From contig NZ_QTUA01000001.1 in the NCBI RefSeq assembly GCF_003386865.1, forward strand, positions 2,232,001-2,296,000: 64,000 nt of DNA. The letters run 5' to 3'. The translations under genes and the position numbers were made by a program. The notes under the pieces are model-generated. The model had not been told where the DNA came from. It searched no databases and worked only from the letters and a program-made list of their open reading frames with translations. This DNA comes from Calidifontibacter indicus (GTDB taxonomy: Bacteria; Actinomycetota; Actinomycetes; Actinomycetales; Dermatophilaceae). Positions 21,669 to 30,409 of this stretch are shown here, in pieces (the stretch's first letter is position 1; the number at the start of each line of letters is the position of its first letter).

Positions 21669-24600
21669 GTGACGATCCGGGTTGCCCTCCACCACCGCAC
21701 GACGTACACCTTCGACGAGCCGGTGACGGTGCACCCGCATGTCGTCCGGCTGCGACCGGCACCGCACAGTCGCACTCCGATCGAGTCGTATTCGCTGTCG
21801 GTCTCGCCGAAGAACCACTTCATCAACTGGCAGCAGGACCCGTTCGGCAACTACCTCGCCCGGCTGGTCTTCCCCGAGCGCGTCAAGGAACTCGACATCA
21901 CCGTCGACCTGGTCGCCGACATGACGGTGATCAACCCCTTCGACTTCTTCGTCGAGGAGTACGCCGAGCACTTCCCGTTCGAGTACGCCCCCGACCTGCG
22001 TGCCGATCTGGAGCCCTACCTGCGCCCGGTCGACGACGGCGACGAGGGCAGCGGCCCCTCGCCGCAGGTGCGGGAATGGATCGACAAGGCGGTTGCCGAC
22101 GCCCGCTCCGGCGAGGACGACCCGCGCATCGTCGACTTCCTGGTCGCGATGAACAGCGCTGTGAACCGGTCGGTTTCGTACTCCGTGCGGATGGAGCACG
22201 GCGTGCAGACACCGCAGGAGACCCTCGATCGAGGTATCGGGTCGTGCCGTGACAGTGCCTGGCTGCTGGTGTCGGCGCTGCGCGAAGCCGGCCTGGCCGC
22301 CCGATTCGTCTCGGGCTATCTCGTTCAGCTCACCTCCGACGTGAAGGCGCTCGACGGACCCGACGGTCCGACCGAGGACTTCACCGACCTGCATGCCTGG
22401 GCCGAGGTGTTCGTGCCGGGCGCCGGATGGATCGGACTCGACGCGACCAGTGGCCTCTTCGCAGGCGAGGGGCACATCCCGCTGTGCGCCACGCCCCACC
22501 CGTCCGCCGCGGCACCGATCACCGGAGCCACCGCACCCGTCGGTGTCAGCTTCGATTTCGAGAACACCGTCACCCGCATCTTCGAAGACCCGCGCGTCAC
22601 CAAGCCCTACTCCGACGTGCAGTGGGAGAAGGTGCGCGAGCTCGGACGCCACGTCGACGAACTGCTCGAGGCGGGCGACGTGCGGCTCACCATGGGCGGC
22701 GAGCCCACCTTCGTCTCCGCAGGCGACACCTCGACCCCGCAGTGGGAGACCGCGGCCGACGGCCCCGAGAAGCGCAAGCTCGCCACCGAACTCGCCGCGA
22801 CGCTGCGCACCCGCTACGCCGAAGGCGGCATCACCCACCACGGTCAGGGCAAGTGGTATCCGGGAGAACCGTTGCCGCGCTGGCAGATCGGCCTCATCTG
22901 GCGGGCCGACGGACAACAGATGTGGCAGCACCCCGACCTGCTCGACGACCCGTGGGGCGACGCGCGTGTGCCCGACGACGAGCAGGAGAAGGCGACCGCC
23001 GTCCGTGACTTCGCCCAACACCTCGCCGCCCGACTCGGGCTGCCCGACGACGTGGTGCGCGCGGCCTACGAAGACCCGATCACGCAGTGGCACAACGAGA
23101 TCCGCCAACCCGCCGGGGAGAAGCCGGGCGACGACGTCGACGCGCTCGACCCGGACCGTGCGCAGAAGCTCGCCGCGAAGGAGCAGGCACCCGAGCTGCC
23201 GACCGGCTGGGTGTTGCCGATCTTCCCAAACTCGGACGGCGACGGCTGGGGGAGCGCGATCTGGCGCACCCGCCGCGACCACCTCTACCTCACCCCGGGC
23301 ACCTCACCGATGGGCCTACGGTTGCCGCTGAGCTCGATCGCCTGGACCGAAGCACCGTTCACGCCCGACGCCTCGCCGTTCGCGGCGTCCGGCACGCTCC
23401 CCACACCCGAAGAACTCGCCTCGGACGACGTCGCGCCGGCCACCCTGCACGACATCGAGGAATCGCCGAGCACCGCGCTGACCGTCGAGGCCCGCGACGG
23501 GCACCTGTTCGTCTTCCTGCCGCCGCTGTCGGAACTCGACGACGCCCTACTCATGCTCGCAGCGATCGAGCAGGCCGCTGTCGCCACCGGCACCCCAGTG
23601 GTGCTCGAGGGATACGCGCCGCCCAGCGGTGCCGGACGGCTCAAGTCGCTGACCGTCACCCCCGACCCCGGCGTCATCGAGGTCAACGTGCAGCCCACCT
23701 CGTCGTGGGAGGAGTTGGAAGACCTCACCACCACGCTCTTCGACGACGCGCGCCGCACCCGCCTGGCCACCGAGAAGTTCGACCTCGACGGCACACACAC
23801 CGGCACCGGCGGCGGCAACCACATCACCCTCGGCGGCTCGACACCGAAGGACTCCCCGCTGCTGCGCCGTCCCGACCTGCTGCGCAGCCTGATCACCTTC
23901 TGGCAGCACCACCCGGCGCTGTCGTATGTGTTCTCCGGACGCTTCATCGGCCCGACCAGCCAGTCGCCGCGCGTCGACGAAGGACGCCACGAGACGCTCT
24001 ACGAACTCGAGATCGCCTTCCACGAACTCGACCGCGTCACAAAGGAATCCGGCGGCGAGCCGCGGCCGTGGCTGACCGACCGACTGCTGCGCCACCTGCT
24101 GACCGACATCACCGGCAACACCCACCGCAGCGAGTTCTGCATCGACAAGCTCTACAGCCCCGACTCCGACCGCGGCCGCCTCGGCATCCTCGAACTGCGC
24201 GGCTTCGAAATGCCCCCGCACGCGCGAATGTCGCTGGTGCAGGCATTGCTCGTGCGCACCCTGGTCGCCCGGTTCTGGAACGAGCCGTACGAGGGCGCCC
24301 TGGTGCGCTGGGGTTCCCGGTTGCACGACCGATTCCTGTTGCCCGCGTTCGCCGCAGCCGACCTGCGCGACGTGGTGGCCGACCTCAACCGGTTCCTGGA
24401 GAACAACGGCAACGGCGACGAGCACCGGTTCGACCCGGCGTGGTTCGACCCGTTCCTGGAGTTCCGCTTCCCCCGGCTCGGCGAGACCGACGTCGACGGG
24501 GTGCACCTCGAACTGCGTCAGGCCGTCGAACCCTGGCACGTGCTGGGGGAGGAGGTGTCGGCCGGAGGGACCGCTCGCTACGTCGACTCCTCGGTCGAGA

Positions 24601-25085
24601 AGGTGCAGGTCGCCGCGACCGGTCTGGTGCCCGGACGCCACGTCGTCACCTGCAACGGCATCCCCGTTCCGATGTCGCCGGTGTCCGGATCGGGTTGGGG
24701 CACAGGCAGCCCCGGCACCGCCGGTGCGCCCGACACGGCGGTCGGTGGCGTTCGGTACCGCGCGTGGGCACCGCCGTCCGCCCTGCACCCGACGATCGGG
24801 GTGCACTCGCCGTTGGTGTTCGACCTGGTCGACCGCTGGAACGGGCTGTCGTTGGGCGGGTTCACCTATCACGTCGTGCACCCGGGTGGCCGGGCGTTCG
24901 AGACCTACCCGGTGAACGCGGCCGAGGCCGAATCGCGCCGCAACAGCCGGTTCGAGGCGCTCGGACACACCTCGGGGCCGATCGACACCTCGACCTGGCC
25001 GGCCGACACCCAGGTGCGACACGGCGGCGGCGAGTACCCGTCGACCCTGGATCTGCGCCGATTCCTGCCCGGGCACCGCGACTGA
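21669..25085 (+). CDS. Transglutaminase-like / DUF2126 (predicted amidoligase) fusion protein
   Basis: A 1138-aa two-part protein. Residues 1-290 form a transglutaminase-like domain with N-terminal beta region and the full triad: Cys193 in GIGSCRDSAWLL, His242 in LHAWAEVF, Asp258 in GLDATSG. Residues about 330-1138 are DUF2126, predicted on family grounds to be a COOH-NH2 ligase of glutamine-synthetase fold; visible elements include MGGEPTFVSAGD, GKWYPGEPLPRWQIG, HTGTGGGNHITLGG and ELRGFEMPPHARMSL. The GTG at 21669 follows TACTGT by 7 nt. It starts a three-gene operon with an ATP-grasp/alpha-E protein and a second transglutaminase, a set predicted to make and process a small peptide; no product is known. 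Confidence 0.92.
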   Translation: MTIRVALHHRTTYTFDEPVTVHPHVVRLRPAPHSRTPIESYSLSVSPKNHFINWQQDPFGNYLARLVFPERVKELDITVDLVADMTVINPFDFFVEEYAEHFPFEYAPDLRADLEPYLRPVDDGDEGSGPSPQVREWIDKAVADARSGEDDPRIVDFLVAMNSAVNRSVSYSVRMEHGVQTPQETLDRGIGSCRDSAWLLVSALREAGLAARFVSGYLVQLTSDVKALDGPDGPTEDFTDLHAWAEVFVPGAGWIGLDATSGLFAGEGHIPLCATPHPSAAAPITGATAPVGVSFDFENTVTRIFEDPRVTKPYSDVQWEKVRELGRHVDELLEAGDVRLTMGGEPTFVSAGDTSTPQWETAADGPEKRKLATELAATLRTRYAEGGITHHGQGKWYPGEPLPRWQIGLIWRADGQQMWQHPDLLDDPWGDARVPDDEQEKATAVRDFAQHLAARLGLPDDVVRAAYEDPITQWHNEIRQPAGEKPGDDVDALDPDRAQKLAAKEQAPELPTGWVLPIFPNSDGDGWGSAIWRTRRDHLYLTPGTSPMGLRLPLSSIAWTEAPFTPDASPFAASGTLPTPEELASDDVAPATLHDIEESPSTALTVEARDGHLFVFLPPLSELDDALLMLAAIEQAAVATGTPVVLEGYAPPSGAGRLKSLTVTPDPGVIEVNVQPTSSWEELEDLTTTLFDDARRTRLATEKFDLDGTHTGTGGGNHITLGGSTPKDSPLLRRPDLLRSLITFWQHHPALSYVFSGRFIGPTSQSPRVDEGRHETLYELEIAFHELDRVTKESGGEPRPWLTDRLLRHLLTDITGNTHRSEFCIDKLYSPDSDRGRLGILELRGFEMPPHARMSLVQALLVRTLVARFWNEPYEGALVRWGSRLHDRFLLPAFAAADLRDVVADLNRFLENNGNGDEHRFDPAWFDPFLEFRFPRLGETDVDGVHLELRQAVEPWHVLGEEVSAGGTARYVDSSVEKVQVAATGLVPGRHVVTCNGIPVPMSPVSGSGWGTGSPGTAGAPDTAVGGVRYRAWAPPSALHPTIGVHSPLVFDLVDRWNGLSLGGFTYHVVHPGGRAFETYPVNAAEAESRRNSRFEALGHTSGPIDTSTWPADTQVRHGGGEYPSTLDLRRFLPGHRD

Positions 25086-25122
25086 CCGGCATCCGGTCGG
25101 TGCCGCCTCATAGGGTGGACGC

Positions 25123-27672
25123 ATGACGGCGCAACCACACGACCGCTCCGGCGTGCTGAGCCGCTACGACGAACGCGTCGAAGCGCTGAGCACCGAGCTC
25201 GGTGACCGGGTCGGCGGTTCTTACGACGAGTGGGTCGGCGACGGTGCAGCAGTGCACGAGTCGCTGCGGTCCATCGTCGACACCGTCGGGGTCGGCGGGC
25301 TGCTCGCCCGCCGCGCCGCGGCGAACCGCTACATCAAGGACGACGGGCTCACCTACACGGCCAACGGCGAACAGCGTTCTCGCCCATGGCAACTCGACCC
25401 GTTACCGGTCGTGATGACCGACACCAAGTGGGTCGAACTCGAACGCGGACTCGCCCAGCGGGCGATGCTGCTCGACGCGTTGCTCGAAGACCTCTATGGC
25501 GACCGGCGGATGATCTCCGAACGTGTCGTCCCGGCGGCGGCGGTCGTCGGTCACGACGGGTTCCTGCCCGCCGCCGATGGCATCCGGCTGCCCGGTGCCC
25601 GCCAACTCGTCATGACCAGCGTCGACCTCGCGCGTGACGCCGCCGGCAACTGGACGGTGATCGCCGACCGCAATCAGGCGCCGTCCGGTGCGGGCTACGC
25701 GATGGCCGACCGCCGGATCATCGCGCGCACCCTCCCACGCCTCTACCGCGACACCGCGCTGGCGCGGCTGCGCGGCTTCTTCGACGAGATGAGCGACGCG
25801 CTGCTCGACGCCGCGCCGGTCACCGTCGACCAGCCCAACATCGTGCTGCTGTCGCCCGGCCCGGAGAGCGAGACCGCGTTCGACCAGGCCTTCCTCGCCA
25901 CCCTGCTCGGCCTGCCGCTGGTGCTCGCCGAAGACCTCACGATGCGCGACGGCCAGGTCTGGCGGCGCACCACCCACAAGCCCCAGAAGGTCGACCTGCT
26001 CGTGCGCCGCGTCGACGCGGCATGGTCGGATCCCCTTGACCTGCGAGGGGATTCGCGGCTCGGAGTCACCGGTCTCACCGAGGCTGCCCGGCGCGGCACG
26101 ATCAGTGTGGTCAACCCGCTGGGCAGCGGAGTGCTGGAGAACCCCGGCCTCGTGCCGTTCCTGCCCGAGGCGGCCAAGCGGCTGCTCGGCGAAGAACTGA
26201 TCCTGCCGGACGCCCGCACCTGGTGGATGGGTGACGACGGGCAGCGGGCCGAGGCGCTCGACCGACTCGACGAACTCGTCGTGAAGCCGATCAGCCGCGG
26301 CGAGGCCGACCCTGCGACGTACGGCTGGGAGCTGTCGACCGAGCAACTCGACGAGCTGCGCACTCGCATCGAGGCCGAGCCCTGGAAGTGGACGGCGCAG
26401 GAGCAGGTGGCGATGTCGACCGCCCCCGTCGTGGCCTCGGACGGCCTTGAGCCGCGTCGCCTCGTACTGCGCACGTTCGGGGTGGGCGGCAACGACGGCT
26501 ACCGGTTCCTGCACGGTGGGCTCGGACGGGTGTCGCCGGACAGCATGAGCTGGGACGTCTCGAACCAGCGCGGCGGCATCGCCAAGGACATCTGGGTGCT
26601 CGCGCCGAGCGAGTTCGAGGCCGCGATGACGGCCCGTGGCCGACACCGTGACACCCTCCAGCTCACCGCCGCCGAGCCGGAGTCGCTCTCGTTGGCACCC
26701 CGTGTCGCCGACGATCTGTTCTGGCTCGGTCGCTACGCCGAACGCGCCGAGTCGAGTGCGCGCCTGGTGACCGTGGTCGACGACCTGGTGGCCGACCACT
26801 GGGGCCGCACCGGGTCGCCCGGGTTCTCCGCGATGCGCGAGATGCTGCTCACCCTCGGTCAGGTCACCGGTGTGCCCACGCCGGGCGTCGAGGAGCACCC
26901 GACCGAGTTCCTGCGCCGCATCGTCTTCGACGAGGAGACGCCGGGCACGATCGCCTACTCGGTACGACGACTCGCGCGCACGGCCCACGCCGTCCGCGAA
27001 CTGCTGTCGCCCGACACCTGGCTGATCCTCAGCCGGTTGCAGACCGCGATCCACCGTCCGGAAGACGACGACGAGCCGCTGCCCGGTGTGCTCGCACAGG
27101 TGCTCGAGGGCCTCGTCGGTCTCGCCGGACTGTCCGCCGAGAACACCGTGCGTGACGAGGTGTGGGCGTTCACCGAGTTCGGCCGCCGGCTCGAGCGGGC
27201 GCTGCAACAGTCGACCCTGCTGCGCGTGTCGATCGGCGCCGAGCGGTCGCCGGTGACCGACGGTCAGGTCACCGAGGCCGCACTGCGGGCCTGCGACAGC
27301 GTCATCACGTTCCGTCGCCGGCTCGCGTCCGGCACCGGTCCGGCATCGCCGGTCGCCGGCATGCTGCAACTGCTGCTGCGCGACCCGATCAACCCGCGGT
27401 CGATGGAGTTCCAGGTGAACCGCCTCTCGGCGATCACCGAGACCGTCGACGACCCCGACATCCGCGAGTCCGTCGACAACCTCGCCGCACACCTGAAGTC
27501 GATCGCACCGGAGGCGCTGGCGTCCAGGGAGCGCAATCAGCTCGCCGACTACACCAGCGAGCTCGCGACACAGCTGCGCAGGCTCAGCGACCTGGTGTCC
27601 GAGCGCTACTTCGTGCGGCCCACGCCACTGCACCGGGTCAGGACGATCCACGAGATCGGAGTGCGCCAGTGA
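25123..27672 (+). CDS. Circularly permuted type 2 ATP-grasp / alpha-E domain fusion protein
   Basis: An 849-aa protein combining two modules that are separate genes in many bacteria. Residues 1 to about 510 are the circularly permuted ATP-grasp family (DUF404/DUF407), with LLEDLYGDRRMISERVVPAA, GYAMADRRIIARTLP, NPLGSGVLENPGLVPFLPE and VVKPISRGEAD. From about 520 the alpha-E (DUF403) helical domain begins with LAPRVADDLFWLGRYAERAE. The ATP-grasp part is expected to form an amide or peptide bond from acyl-phosphate; alpha-E has no known activity. TAGGGT at 25111-25116 lies 6 nt before the ATG. The stop overlaps the next gene's start as GTGA. Confidence 0.92.
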   Translation: MTAQPHDRSGVLSRYDERVEALSTELGDRVGGSYDEWVGDGAAVHESLRSIVDTVGVGGLLARRAAANRYIKDDGLTYTANGEQRSRPWQLDPLPVVMTDTKWVELERGLAQRAMLLDALLEDLYGDRRMISERVVPAAAVVGHDGFLPAADGIRLPGARQLVMTSVDLARDAAGNWTVIADRNQAPSGAGYAMADRRIIARTLPRLYRDTALARLRGFFDEMSDALLDAAPVTVDQPNIVLLSPGPESETAFDQAFLATLLGLPLVLAEDLTMRDGQVWRRTTHKPQKVDLLVRRVDAAWSDPLDLRGDSRLGVTGLTEAARRGTISVVNPLGSGVLENPGLVPFLPEAAKRLLGEELILPDARTWWMGDDGQRAEALDRLDELVVKPISRGEADPATYGWELSTEQLDELRTRIEAEPWKWTAQEQVAMSTAPVVASDGLEPRRLVLRTFGVGGNDGYRFLHGGLGRVSPDSMSWDVSNQRGGIAKDIWVLAPSEFEAAMTARGRHRDTLQLTAAEPESLSLAPRVADDLFWLGRYAERAESSARLVTVVDDLVADHWGRTGSPGFSAMREMLLTLGQVTGVPTPGVEEHPTEFLRRIVFDEETPGTIAYSVRRLARTAHAVRELLSPDTWLILSRLQTAIHRPEDDDEPLPGVLAQVLEGLVGLAGLSAENTVRDEVWAFTEFGRRLERALQQSTLLRVSIGAERSPVTDGQVTEAALRACDSVITFRRRLASGTGPASPVAGMLQLLLRDPINPRSMEFQVNRLSAITETVDDPDIRESVDNLAAHLKSIAPEALASRERNQLADYTSELATQLRRLSDLVSERYFVRPTPLHRVRTIHEIGVRQ

Positions 27673-28628
27673 CCACGACCGAGCCGCGCCCCGACCTGCA
27701 CAACACCCGCCACTACGAGGTGCGTCACACCACCGAGTACGTCTACGAGGACTACGTCACCGCGTCCTACAGCCGGGCCTGCCTGCGTCCGCGCTCGACC
27801 GACCACCAGAAGGTCGTCTCCAACGTCATCGAGGTGACCCCGTCGGCGAACGTGATGTCGGAACACACCGACTTCTTCGGCAACTACAGCCACTACCTGG
27901 AGATCCGCACCCGGCACACGCGGTTTGCGGTGACCAAGCGGTCGGAGCTCGAGATCACCTGGCCCCAGGTCGACGTCGAAGCCCTCAACCGGTGGACGGT
28001 GGCCACCGCCCGGGAGGAACTGCGCTCCACCGCAGCGGGATTCGACCTCGATCACGCGCGCTACCTGTTGCCCTCACGGCTGGTCGATGTGACCCCGATG
28101 GTCGCCGCGTACGCGGTCGAGCACCTGCCCGACAACAAGCCGCTCGGCGACGCGCTGGTGCACCTCTACGAGCTGATCTACAGCGACTACAAGTACGCCA
28201 AGGGAGCCACCTCGACCACGACCACCCTCGAGGAGGTCATCGAGGGCAAGGCCGGGGTCTGCCAGGACTTCGCACACCTCGCCGCGGGCATGGCTCGCCA
28301 CGTCGGGCTGCCGGCCCGCTACGTCAGCGGCTACATCGAGACGGTGCCCCCACCGGGCAAACCGAAGCTCGCGGGGTCGGACGCCACCCACGCCTGGACG
28401 TCCATACGGACCCCGCTCGGGTGGGTCGACCTCGACCCGACGAACAACCACTTCGCCGACTCGCGCTACATCGTGACCGCGTGGGGGCGTGACTTCCGCG
28501 ACGTGTCACCGCTCAAGGGCATCATCTTCAGCGAGGGCAGTGGCAGCACCCTCCACGTCGCTGTCGACGTCATCCCGCTGACCAAGGAGCGGGCGCACCG
28601 CCAGCCGGAGTTGGGCGACCTGGGCTGA
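27669..28628 (+). CDS. Transglutaminase-like cysteine protease family protein
   Basis: A 319-aa transglutaminase-fold protein with an N-terminal beta domain (YEVRHTTEYVYEDYVTASYS) and triad Cys198 in GVCQDFAHLAAGMAR, His241 in THAWTSI and Asp256 in DLDPTNN. It is the short stand-alone type that accompanies circularly permuted ATP-grasp and alpha-E genes. The frame is open far upstream inside the previous gene; the GTG at 27669 overlaps that gene's stop by 4 nt and gives the proper N-terminus. It may hydrolyse or transfer the isopeptide product made by the operon's ligases; this is inference. Confidence 0.92.
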   Translation: MTTTEPRPDLHNTRHYEVRHTTEYVYEDYVTASYSRACLRPRSTDHQKVVSNVIEVTPSANVMSEHTDFFGNYSHYLEIRTRHTRFAVTKRSELEITWPQVDVEALNRWTVATAREELRSTAAGFDLDHARYLLPSRLVDVTPMVAAYAVEHLPDNKPLGDALVHLYELIYSDYKYAKGATSTTTTLEEVIEGKAGVCQDFAHLAAGMARHVGLPARYVSGYIETVPPPGKPKLAGSDATHAWTSIRTPLGWVDLDPTNNHFADSRYIVTAWGRDFRDVSPLKGIIFSEGSGSTLHVAVDVIPLTKERAHRQPELGDLG

Positions 28629-28848: not shown

Positions 28849-28936
28849 GTCCGGGTGGCGGAATGGCAGACGCGCTAGCTTGAGGTGCTAGTGCCCTTTA
28901 ACGGGCGTGGGGGTTCAAGTCCCCCTCCGGACACCA
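28849..28936 (+). tRNA. tRNA-Leu (anticodon GAG)
   Basis: An 88-nt cloverleaf with encoded CCA. The acceptor strands GTCCGGG (28849-28855) and TCCGGAC (28926-28932) pair with one G-U; the discriminator is A and CCA is at 28934-28936. The anticodon stem CTAGC/GCTAG holds the 7-nt loop TTGAGGT, so the anticodon is GAG, reading CUC and CUU. A long variable arm (GTGCCCTTTAACGGGCGT region) is typical of class II leucine tRNAs. The T arm is GGGGG-TTCAAGT-CCCCC. Its 3' end is duplicated 1.9 kb downstream. Confidence 0.95.
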
Positions 28937-29467: not shown

Positions 29468-30409
29468 TCAGCGCAGCGGTTTGCTGGGCTGTTTTGCGAG
29501 CGTAGTACGCCTCCTCAAGCTCGACGGGTGGGATGTCGCCGCAGTACTCGTACAGGCGCCGATGGGGTTGAACCAGTCGACCCATTCGGTGGTCGCGATC
29601 TCGACGTCATCGGCGCCCTTCCAGGGCTTGGCTCGCTTGATCAACTCGGTCTTGTACAACCCGTTGATCGACTCCGCTAACGCGTTGTCGTACGAATCCC
29701 CAGTACTACCAATGGAATCCGCGACACCGGCCTCGGCCAGGGCTTGACCGAACCGGATCGAGGTGTACTGAGACCCCCGATCGTGGTGATGCACCAACGC
29801 GCTGAAATCAGCTGTCCCGTAACGGTTCCGGGTCCAGACAGCCTGCTCGAACGCATGCAACACGAAGTCCGTCGTCATCGACGTCGACACCGACCACCCC
29901 AAGATCCGCCGCGCGTAGGCGTCGACGACGAACGCGACGTACACCCACCCCGACCACGTGCTGACATAGGTGAAGTCGGCGACCCACAGCCGGTCCGGCG
30001 CCAACGGCGCGAACCGGCGACACACCAGATCATCCGGACGCCGATCAGCGGCCGACGCGTCGGGCGTCGTGGTCCGCTTGACCGTGCCGCGGATCGCGCC
30101 CCGCCACCCGCGTTCACGCATGATCCGCTCCACCGTGCACCGGGCAACCCGGTGGCCTTCGCGGTTGAGTTGCAACCACACCTTCCGAGCCCCGTACACG
30201 CTGTAGTTCTCGGTGTAGACACGGTGAATCTCTCTGGTCAGCAACGCTTCTCGCCAGTCCGAGGTGGTCATCGGGCGATCCACGAGTTCGTAATAGGTCG
30301 ATGGGGCGATCGTGATCCCGTGCTCGGTCAGCACGGAACAGATCGGCTCGACACCCCACCGCAGACCACCAGGTTCACGCCGATCGGCGTGCACCCTGAT
30401 GAAGTCCAC
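29468..30409 (-). CDS. IS3-family transposase OrfB, C-terminal frameshift
   Basis: A 313-aa rve/DDE transposase subunit: N-terminal HTH_21-like region (CSVLTEHGITIAPSTYYELV), catalytic Asp in WVADFTYVSTW, second Asp in HHHDRGSQYTS, and catalytic Glu in NALAESINGLYKTELI. After TEWVDWFN the tail becomes non-homologous. In the next frame the expected RRLYEYCGDIPPVELEEAYY appears, ending at 29460. A missing A near 29567 (AACCCCATCGG for AACCACCATCGG) would restore it. The catalytic triad lies upstream of the shift, so activity may be impaired rather than certainly lost. OrfB overlaps orfA in the -1 frame, as usual for programmed frameshifting in IS3. Confidence 0.85.
   Translation of the reverse strand: MDFIRVHADRREPGGLRWGVEPICSVLTEHGITIAPSTYYELVDRPMTTSDWREALLTREIHRVYTENYSVYGARKVWLQLNREGHRVARCTVERIMRERGWRGAIRGTVKRTTTPDASAADRRPDDLVCRRFAPLAPDRLWVADFTYVSTWSGWVYVAFVVDAYARRILGWSVSTSMTTDFVLHAFEQAVWTRNRYGTADFSALVHHHDRGSQYTSIRFGQALAEAGVADSIGSTGDSYDNALAESINGLYKTELIKRAKPWKGADDVEIATTEWVDWFNPIGACTSTAATSHPSSLRRRTTLAKQPSKPLR

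Follow-up and report, generated by a model that had tools for sequence, protein, structure and literature searches.

The transglutaminase, DUF2126 and ATP-grasp–alpha-E operon of Calidifontibacter indicus has, in our judgement, an even chance of belonging to a conserved amide-bond system of two parts, of which it would be one and in which the ATP-grasp protein encoded by gene 2 is non-catalytic and an intact ATP-grasp set is encoded at a distance. An amide-bond (peptide) module is the best reading of the gene set, in line with published predictions.

The operon belongs to a widespread bacterial module

The operon was analysed within a window, the whole 64-kb stretch of DNA to which the coordinates below refer. 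Genes 1 and 2 are separated by 37 nt.

21669..25085, + strand: gene 1, a fusion of transglutaminase-like and DUF2126 domains (1138 aa, GTG start; ORF and Pfam)
25123..27672, + strand: gene 2 (849 aa), a circularly permuted ATP-grasp, predicted to be a pseudoenzyme, joined to alpha-E
27669..28628, + strand: gene 3, an unfused transglutaminase-like protein with triad C198/H241/D256 (319 aa, GTG start)
27669..27672, + strand: 4-nt overlap of genes 2 and 3 (GTGA)

ORF coordinates and Pfam matches bear out the gene positions, domain fusions and overlap given in the original prediction. Gene 1 matched Bact_transglu_N, Transglut_core and DUF2126 (1142 bits), gene 2 matched CP_ATPgrasp_2 (433 bits) and Alpha-E (205 bits), and gene 3 matched Bact_transglu_N and Transglut_core; none of the three had a match in NCBIfam. 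The order TG-DUF2126, ATP-grasp-alphaE, TG on one strand is common to 62 of the 80 named loci, and at least 10 of the 18 loci without it end at contig borders. The fused form is therefore the usual one, and not a reduction special to this genome.

The gene set is a widespread module that had already been predicted in print. Amidoligase operons were reportedly predicted by Iyer et al. in 2009, and no identified product was found for the set in the literature since the 2008-2009 prediction. A fusion of transglutaminase and GS-fold ligase, exemplified by M. tuberculosis Rv2566, was described in 2008 with a predicted role in the synthesis of peptide metabolites (PMC2588565). Gene 1 carries this same fusion, with no difference in kind found. 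The proposal of an undescribed peptide-making system is partly supported: a peptide module is the best reading, but calling the gene set undescribed is wrong, because the domain fusion is named there.

Two published operons resemble the module. The related Anbu operon (ATP-grasp, alphaE, TG, Anbu), discussed with citation of the 2009 prediction paper in the available text of PMC6376114 and PMC5666114, is built from the same families, and PMC6376114 describes phosphate release from ATP by an ATP-grasp encoded in such an operon. Its ATP-grasp and alphaE are, however, separate proteins and its four-gene set has no DUF2126, whereas the window has no Anbu. In the rlo operon of Pseudomonas aeruginosa an ATP-grasp likewise adjoins a TG-domain protein and a protease, but the available description gives a RimK-like ATP-grasp, a membrane-bound inactive TG and a retropepsin (PMC12239564); neither ‘DUF2126’ nor ‘alpha-E’ is mentioned in that paper.

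Gene 2 has an ATP-grasp fold without the metal and phosphate motifs

The E-x-N motif binds Mg in glutathione synthetase. Its counterpart in gene 2 and the other regions discussed here are located as follows.

25405..26535, + strand: circularly permuted ATP-grasp region, fold matching 3n6x at Z 37.9 and glutathione synthetase at Z 26
25663..25671, + strand: codons of A181-D182-R183, E-D-N in intact relatives (metal motif lost)
26302..26313, + strand: codons of residues 394-397 (EADP), GGxG in intact relatives (Gly-rich loop lost)
26695..27612, + strand: alpha-E domain (Pfam; all-helical in the model)

The structural model of gene 2 matches 3n6x, a putative glutathionylspermidine synthase from Methylobacillus flagellatus, over 442 aligned residues (3.1 Å, 30% identity), and the glutathione synthetase 2hgs over 416 (Z 26.0, 3.9 Å). 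The predicted fold is shared over about 350-417 residues with eukaryotic-type glutathione synthetase and bacterial glutathionylspermidine synthetase, which are known active enzymes, whereas gene 2 has lost the metal and phosphate motifs; 3n6x retains both E-D-N and the Gly-rich loop. For alpha-E, the model gave helical-bundle matches only (cytochrome bd, Z 9.9), below the tool's noise level for helical models.

The loss is common to all the gene-2-type proteins that were aligned. None of the 107 gene-2-type copies retains the E and N of E-x-N, GGxG or D448, whereas all 54 stand-alone-type copies do, with PDB 3n6x in the latter state, and independent profile alignments to 3n6x agree on the motif loss in gene 2. 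The ATP-grasp rows cover ORFs that the first search returned with more than 350 aligned residues; 11 of the 80 named loci, plus L151, have no gene-2-type row. The gene-2-type ATP-grasps form a single clade (support 1.0). Across these 107 proteins twenty positions never vary, so the proteins are under constraint and not decaying. Alignments and tree show, at the level of sequence, a single ancient loss of the metal and phosphate motifs, with other residues staying invariant. The best reading of gene 2 is a partner protein made of pseudo-ATP-grasp and alphaE, the motif loss predicting, without proving, inactivity. Its link to DUF2126 is not exclusive, since the genomes that encode ten of the 107 gene-2-type proteins lack DUF2126. 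At loci with gene 2 and no DUF2126 (L141-L150), searches, one of them noisy with antisense ORFs, gave no clear replacement family beyond gene 3 and Peptidase_Mx.

DUF2126 and the transglutaminase domains keep their conserved residues

22104..22445, + strand: transglutaminase core of gene 1 (Pfam; triad C193, H242, D258; fold 3isr, Z 18.2)
22542..25058, + strand: DUF2126 domain (Pfam; GS fold and Dop 7oy3 matches, see below)

Both transglutaminase triads are intact, as originally noted: that of gene 1 is invariant in 108/108 aligned proteins and that of gene 3 in 102/102, the window protein counted each time. Removal of incomplete or low-scoring matches beforehand had taken out one of 108 gene-1 loci and 11 of 112 gene-3 loci. 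Judged by their sequences, genes 1 and 3 are transglutaminase-type cysteine amidases. Elsewhere, the TG at C1:3117 kb is the closest to Anbu-linked TGs among five TG queries; its scanned neighbours show nothing tying that TG to the system.

DUF2126 looks GS-like by predicted structure, with no support from sequence profiles. Its model matches glutamine synthetases at moderate scores (Z 8.6-9.3, 215-292 aligned residues, rmsd 3.4-5.2 Å), many glutamine-synthetase-family chains in the VIA list match the DUF2126 region, and Foldseek paired the model with the depupylase Dop (7oy3, probability 0.93, E 0.025). With low-diversity profiles, neither the alignment to GS (probability 0.2%, E 0.28) nor that by hhalign to the window's Pup_ligase-family protein, which is Dop or PafA, the two not told apart (probability 0.5%, E 0.12), was significant. 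At about 830 residues, DUF2126 is also unlike glutamine synthetase and Dop in length. Residues E345, E671, H718, R820, E842 and R844 are invariant in 108/108 proteins, with E345, H718, E842 and R844 as candidates for a two-metal ligand set. T347, likewise invariant, would by GS motifs and numbering fall where GS has a metal-site Glu; the chemistry of DUF2126 may therefore also deviate.

Loss of metal and ATP ligands, which the original prediction named as grounds for refuting it, was accordingly observed for one of the two ligase-like parts: the ATP-grasp shows it (0/107), whereas DUF2126 has conserved motifs, with the position of T347 possibly changed. DUF2126 survives as a putative ligase, since its conserved motifs stay and its predicted fold matches glutamine synthetases; the suggested structure predictions thus returned a GS-like DUF2126 and an ATP-grasp fold for gene 2. 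The four activity types first counted are too many, the ATP-grasp part lacking its metal and phosphate motifs. In our best reading, DUF2126 is the operon's sole candidate ATP-dependent ligase.

A second, intact set and variable peptidase companions

With working parts apparently lost from gene 2, a further copy that is intact would be expected elsewhere in the genome. At ~1.16 Mb from the operon the same genome does carry an intact ATP-grasp-alphaE-TG set, the two sets being unlinked. This set, and the Peptidase_Mx of relatives, lay outside the view of the original prediction. In a class survey, DUF2126 scored above the cut-off in 34 of 296 genomes (G209, below it, was left out); by raw genome counts that ignore kinship, at least two alphaE genes were present in 34/34 genomes with DUF2126 and in 16/262 without. 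Nine of these 34 genomes were inspected, and in each the second alphaE is part of an intact ATP-grasp set. The control genome, that of Synechococcus elongatus, has matches to DUF2126, CP_ATPgrasp_2 and alphaE. An intact ATP-grasp and alphaE pair directly adjoins the module on the same strand at 24 of the 80 named loci, and at L085, L103 and L117 DUF2126 adjoins the intact pair with no gene-2 homologue within the ~10 kb flank.

Peptidase_Mx, a zinc peptidase, is present in 32 of the 34 DUF2126 genomes of the class survey. Within the host's own family, where DUF2126 occurs in 28/149 genomes, it accompanies DUF2126 in 4/28, one of these matches being a 43-position scrap; given this weak association we do not call it obligatory. 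It had no match in the whole host genome in a search that scored above the cut-off in 66 of the 296 class genomes (G081 and G060, below the cut-off, are left out of these counts). A weak partial match, G273, is the sole one of the 66 without alphaE.

The reported lack of an Anbu gene beside the operon and the presence of Pup-proteasome (pupylation) genes in the host were both confirmed. The Anbu profile had no match in the 64-kb window or in the own-genome loci L159-L162. PF00227 matched two 20S proteasome subunits only over the genome; this family misses the true Anbu of L055, so that search excludes no Anbu. Seventeen of the 80 named loci, 16 from Methylococcales and one from a Hahella, have an Anbu homologue in the locus of the DUF2126 module; its identity as Anbu was confirmed for L055.

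Origin of the operon and search for a precursor

Because DUF2126 is patchily distributed in both surveys, we considered horizontal gain from Gammaproteobacteria. It is ruled out by the DUF2126 tree (midpoint root), in which the window groups with Metallococcus (support 0.89) within a clade of 37 actinobacterial sequences (support 1.0), and by the upstream DinB flank common to the window, L041 and L042. A precursor-peptide gene was sought among flanking ORFs of 20-150 aa by comparison with L041-L044, ORFs below 20 aa and distant precursors lying outside the scope and the flanks of L043 and L044 being less conserved. Matches were confined to L041 and L042 and lie in or opposite the DinB frame, leaving no candidate precursor in the flanks compared.

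Alternative readings

Two alternatives would make gene 2 an enzyme. Gene 2 and DUF2126 could both be active ligases, the operon, its two TGs included, then sufficing on its own for peptide synthesis. The clear predicted ATP-grasp fold of gene 2 would allow this; K388 is moreover kept in the window's protein (K in 74 of the 107 gene-2-type proteins) and D182 in 105/107. We nonetheless regard this as very unlikely, as none of the 107 retains E, N, GGxG or D448 and each of the 34 DUF2126 genomes in the class survey has a further alphaE gene. The pocket might instead have been remodelled, through D182, R183, Q185, G191 and E339, to bind a nucleotide or substrate otherwise and catalyse something else. 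Several substituted positions are indeed strongly conserved: Q185 in 105/107 (R in 54/54 intact copies), G191 in 107/107 (S in 52/54) and E339 in 107/107 (D in 54/54). Such a change of chemistry is improbable all the same, for no other set of metal ligands came to light and the phosphate-loop region is variable and gapped.

DUF2126 could also serve a protein tag. If it resembled Dop in function as it does in the Foldseek match, it might cleave isopeptide bonds together with TG isopeptidases in tag removal or salvage, and the TGs being cysteine amidases and the peptidase companions in relatives would suit such a role; the pairing of the DUF2126 region with glutamine-synthetase-family chains in the VIA list, and the E value of only 0.12 against the Pup_ligase-family protein, make us doubt it. 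Still less probable is that DUF2126 joins a peptide to proteins that are later trimmed or degraded. Tagging proposals for the Anbu operon are cited in the available text of PMC6376114 and the host also has pupylation genes, but the two close relatives with the shared upstream flank have no conserved small ORF next to the operon, and PMC2588565, in its available sections, uses the absence of Pup-like ORFs to argue for peptide metabolites over tagging.

A possible division of labour

Under the preferred reading of a two-part system with a non-catalytic gene 2, the intact glutathione synthetase-like ATP-grasp of the distant set would form a short peptide or isopeptide bond in an ATP-driven step, and DUF2126 would add or join a further residue, also driven by ATP. 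Gene 2 may be a non-catalytic receptor or scaffold that holds the shared substrate or partners the intact ATP-grasp, and so presents substrate to alphaE and the ligase parts. Amide bonds would be cleaved or transferred by the two TG domains; since the relatives' peptidases (Peptidase_Mx, and Anbu in Methylococcales) were not found in the host (Peptidase_Mx across the whole genome, Anbu in the window and four loci), the TGs may also do the trimming.

We suggest, tentatively, that one duplication of a glutathione synthetase-like ligase gave rise to a dead, alphaE-fused copy that was kept as a substrate holder in the sampled loci, which are actinobacterial, proteobacterial, campylobacterial, bacteroidotal and from Trueperaceae. 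If this is true, peptides would be assembled by two ATP-grasps, one intact and one dead, together with a GS-fold ligase. Gene-2-type proteins, if they are pseudo-ATP-grasps, are predicted to be inactive when alone. The gene set is common. Given that its ATP-grasp is probably dead and that a second alphaE gene is present in the surveyed genomes, DUF2126 and the distant ATP-grasp would be the candidates for ATP-dependent ligation, gene 2 a binding partner and Peptidase_Mx the peptidase to consider.

Operon layout and distribution

The three genes lie on one strand, with a gap of 37 nt between genes 1 and 2 and a GTGA overlap at the junction of genes 2 and 3. A DinB gene lies upstream. Domains were assigned with Pfam; an NCBIfam scan of the operon gave no matches.

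Features of the operon and its downstream flank (window positions)
21669-25085, same strand as genes 2 and 3: gene 1, 1138 aa, bacterial transglutaminase N-region, transglutaminase core and DUF2126
25123-27672, same strand as genes 1 and 3: gene 2, 849 aa, circularly permuted ATP-grasp and Alpha-E
27669-28628, same strand as genes 1 and 2: gene 3, 319 aa, transglutaminase N-region and core
28849-28936: tRNA-Leu (gag), directly downstream of the operon
29468-30409, minus strand: IS3-like transposase ORF (rve, HTH_21), after the tRNA-Leu

We compared 80 named loci, the best 80 of 307 gene-1 matches, whose record titles cover actinomycetes, Gammaproteobacteria, Campylobacterota, a Desulfuromonad, Bacteroidota and a Trueperaceae. 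Gene 1, ATP-grasp-alphaE and transglutaminase follow in that order on one strand in 62 of the 80. The fusions are therefore the normal form of the module and not a reduction peculiar to this genome. At least 10 of the 18 exceptions are cut by contig ends and some have inverted parts; in L080, L085, L103 and L117 no gene-2 homologue was detected in the approximately 10 kb searched. A citrate synthase gene separates DUF2126 from the ATP-grasp-alphaE gene in one locus (L055, 13437-14795; Pfam, this locus alone), an unexplained insertion of a central-metabolism gene. Citrate synthase-homologous ORFs occur in 21 loci; the five among them that were listed belong to Methylococcales.

Among named relatives, Metallococcus carri, Allobranchiibius, Arsenicicoccus and Luteipulveratus come closest (67-76% identity over the best segment). 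In the tree the window protein groups with Metallococcus inside actinobacterial sequences, and the DinB flank is common to the window and loci L041 and L042; both observations point to vertical descent accompanied by many losses. DUF2126 exceeds the cut-off in 34/296 genomes of the class, 28/149 of the organism's own family and all three searched of its genus. L042 likewise has a tRNA-Leu (gag) near its operon. Another record, L048, carries the Firmicute title Planococcus sp. and may be mislabelled, because its DUF2126 groups with actinobacterial sequences.

The gene-2 ATP-grasp has lost its ligand motifs

The gene-2 model (mean pLDDT 88) matches the structure 3n6x (Z 37.9), human glutathione synthetase (Z 26.0) and glutathionylspermidine synthetase (Z 22.7). 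In glutathione synthetase, E-x-N holds Mg. ATP-grasp proteins from loci L041-L176 were sorted according to which they matched better, the window copy or the other copy in this genome, motifs playing no part. This gave 107 proteins of gene-2 type, the window protein among them (69 come from named loci), and 54 of stand-alone type, of which 39 come from named loci. All 54 stand-alone proteins keep E-D-N, GGxG, K388 and D448, whereas the E, the N, GGxG and D448 are each found in 0/107 of the gene-2 type; position 388 is K in 74 of these and R in 28. Window gene 2 reads A-D-R for E-D-N and E-A-D-P for GGxG, and another program placed the same replacements in profile alignments to 3n6x.

The metal and ATP ligands are thus lost on alignment, and the ATP-grasp that the original prediction counted as an activity is probably dead. 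We are fairly confident of the narrower claim that gene 2 is no ordinary ATP-grasp ligase. Because all gene-2-type proteins fall in a single clade (support 1.0), the motifs appear to have been lost once, long ago, and twenty positions invariant among the 107 proteins show that these are constrained. Gene 2 could conceivably have acquired new chemistry, since some replaced positions (Q185, G191, E339) are conserved in their new state.

An intact set lies elsewhere in the genome

A second set, comprising a stand-alone ATP-grasp, alphaE and transglutaminase, lies within C1:1087-1092 kb, about 1.16 Mb from the operon, and its ATP-grasp keeps LEDN and GAGGKG. At least two alphaE genes were found in 34/34 DUF2126 genomes of the class survey vs 16/262 others (Fisher p about 1e-32, ancestry ignored), and the second alphaE locus was an intact set in all eight other DUF2126 genomes fetched (L163-L170; 8 of 33). 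An intact ATP-grasp and alphaE directly adjoin the module on the same strand in 24/80 named loci; an intact-type ATP-grasp falls within the fetched flank in 42/80. DUF2126 stands directly behind the intact pair in L085, L103 and L117, and no gene-2 homologue was detected in the approximately 10 kb searched. Passages of PMC6376114 describe release of phosphate from ATP by the ATP-grasp of an Anbu operon.

DUF2126 and the transglutaminase domains

The 50 structures shown for the gene-1 AlphaFold2 model (mean pLDDT 78.8) were transglutaminase- or papain-like for the N-terminal part and of the glutamine synthetase family for the rest. Residues of about 308-1099 matched glutamine synthetases with Z 8.6-9.3 over 215-292 aligned positions, Z near 9 being moderate for a long model, and the Foldseek hits included Dop, a depupylase (prob 0.93, E 0.025). 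Profile-profile comparison of DUF2126 with 24 glutamine synthetases and with the window's own Pup_ligase-family protein gave no significant match; by sequence the gene-1 profile found, beyond noise, transglutaminase-type structures alone. Residues E345, E671, H718, R820, E842 and R844 are kept in 108/108 proteins. Position 347 is Thr in the gene-1 consensus; judged by glutamine synthetase motifs it would correspond to a Glu of the metal site, which may thus be altered. Passages of PMC2588565 (2008) assign Rv2566, which has the gene-1 domain order, to this ligase superfamily by sequence searches.

Both transglutaminase triads are intact, as predicted: C193/H242/D258 in 108/108 aligned gene-1 proteins and C198/H241/D256 in 102/102 for gene 3. 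In the gene-1 model the N-terminal region matches the structure 3isr (Z 18.2), as gene 3 does by sequence (E 1.9e-13). The genome has two further transglutaminase-like genes, one at C1:3117241, the best match among the transglutaminase queries used to Anbu-linked transglutaminases, and one at C1:872279, adjoining an AMP-binding enzyme and a GNAT gene. A sixth transglutaminase domain lies at C1:2680247.

Peptidase companions

A homologue of the zinc peptidase Peptidase_Mx, usually adjoining gene 3, occurs in 22/28 fetched actinomycete DUF2126 loci and in nine of ten actinomycete loci (L141-L150) that keep genes 2 and 3 in genomes without DUF2126. Pfam found zinc-ribbon and Peptidase_Mx domains in the one such homologue-bearing locus scanned and in L048. 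In the class survey Peptidase_Mx is carried by 32/34 DUF2126 genomes, and alphaE is present in 65/66 Peptidase_Mx genomes. Peptidase_Mx exceeds the cut-off in 4/28 DUF2126 genomes of the family, and a genome-wide search of the window's own genome gave no match. Anbu homologues occur in 17/80 named loci (16 Methylococcales and one Hahella); for L055 the identification was checked against structures of Anbu. The window itself has none by the Anbu profile and encodes Pup-proteasome genes (ARC ATPase, Pup_ligase-family protein, two proteasome subunits), both in line with the original prediction.

Proposed function

The system had been put forward as a candidate undescribed one; the transglutaminase-ligase fusion and the peptide-synthesis idea are in print in passages of PMC2588565. 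Titles, abstract openings and passages of the papers that the literature searches listed report neither a product, the ATP-grasp motif loss nor the Peptidase_Mx link. A 2009 paper, cited in passages of PMC5666114, PMC6376114, PMC12239564 and PMC12096838, could contain the latter two, and we therefore claim no priority for them.

From the observed gene content, triads, fold matches, motif loss and co-occurrence we infer a mechanism whose chances as a whole we judge evenly balanced. The distant intact ATP-grasp and DUF2126 would use ATP to build a small peptide or isopeptide, the pseudo-ATP-grasp/alphaE protein would hold it, and the transglutaminases would cut or transfer it.
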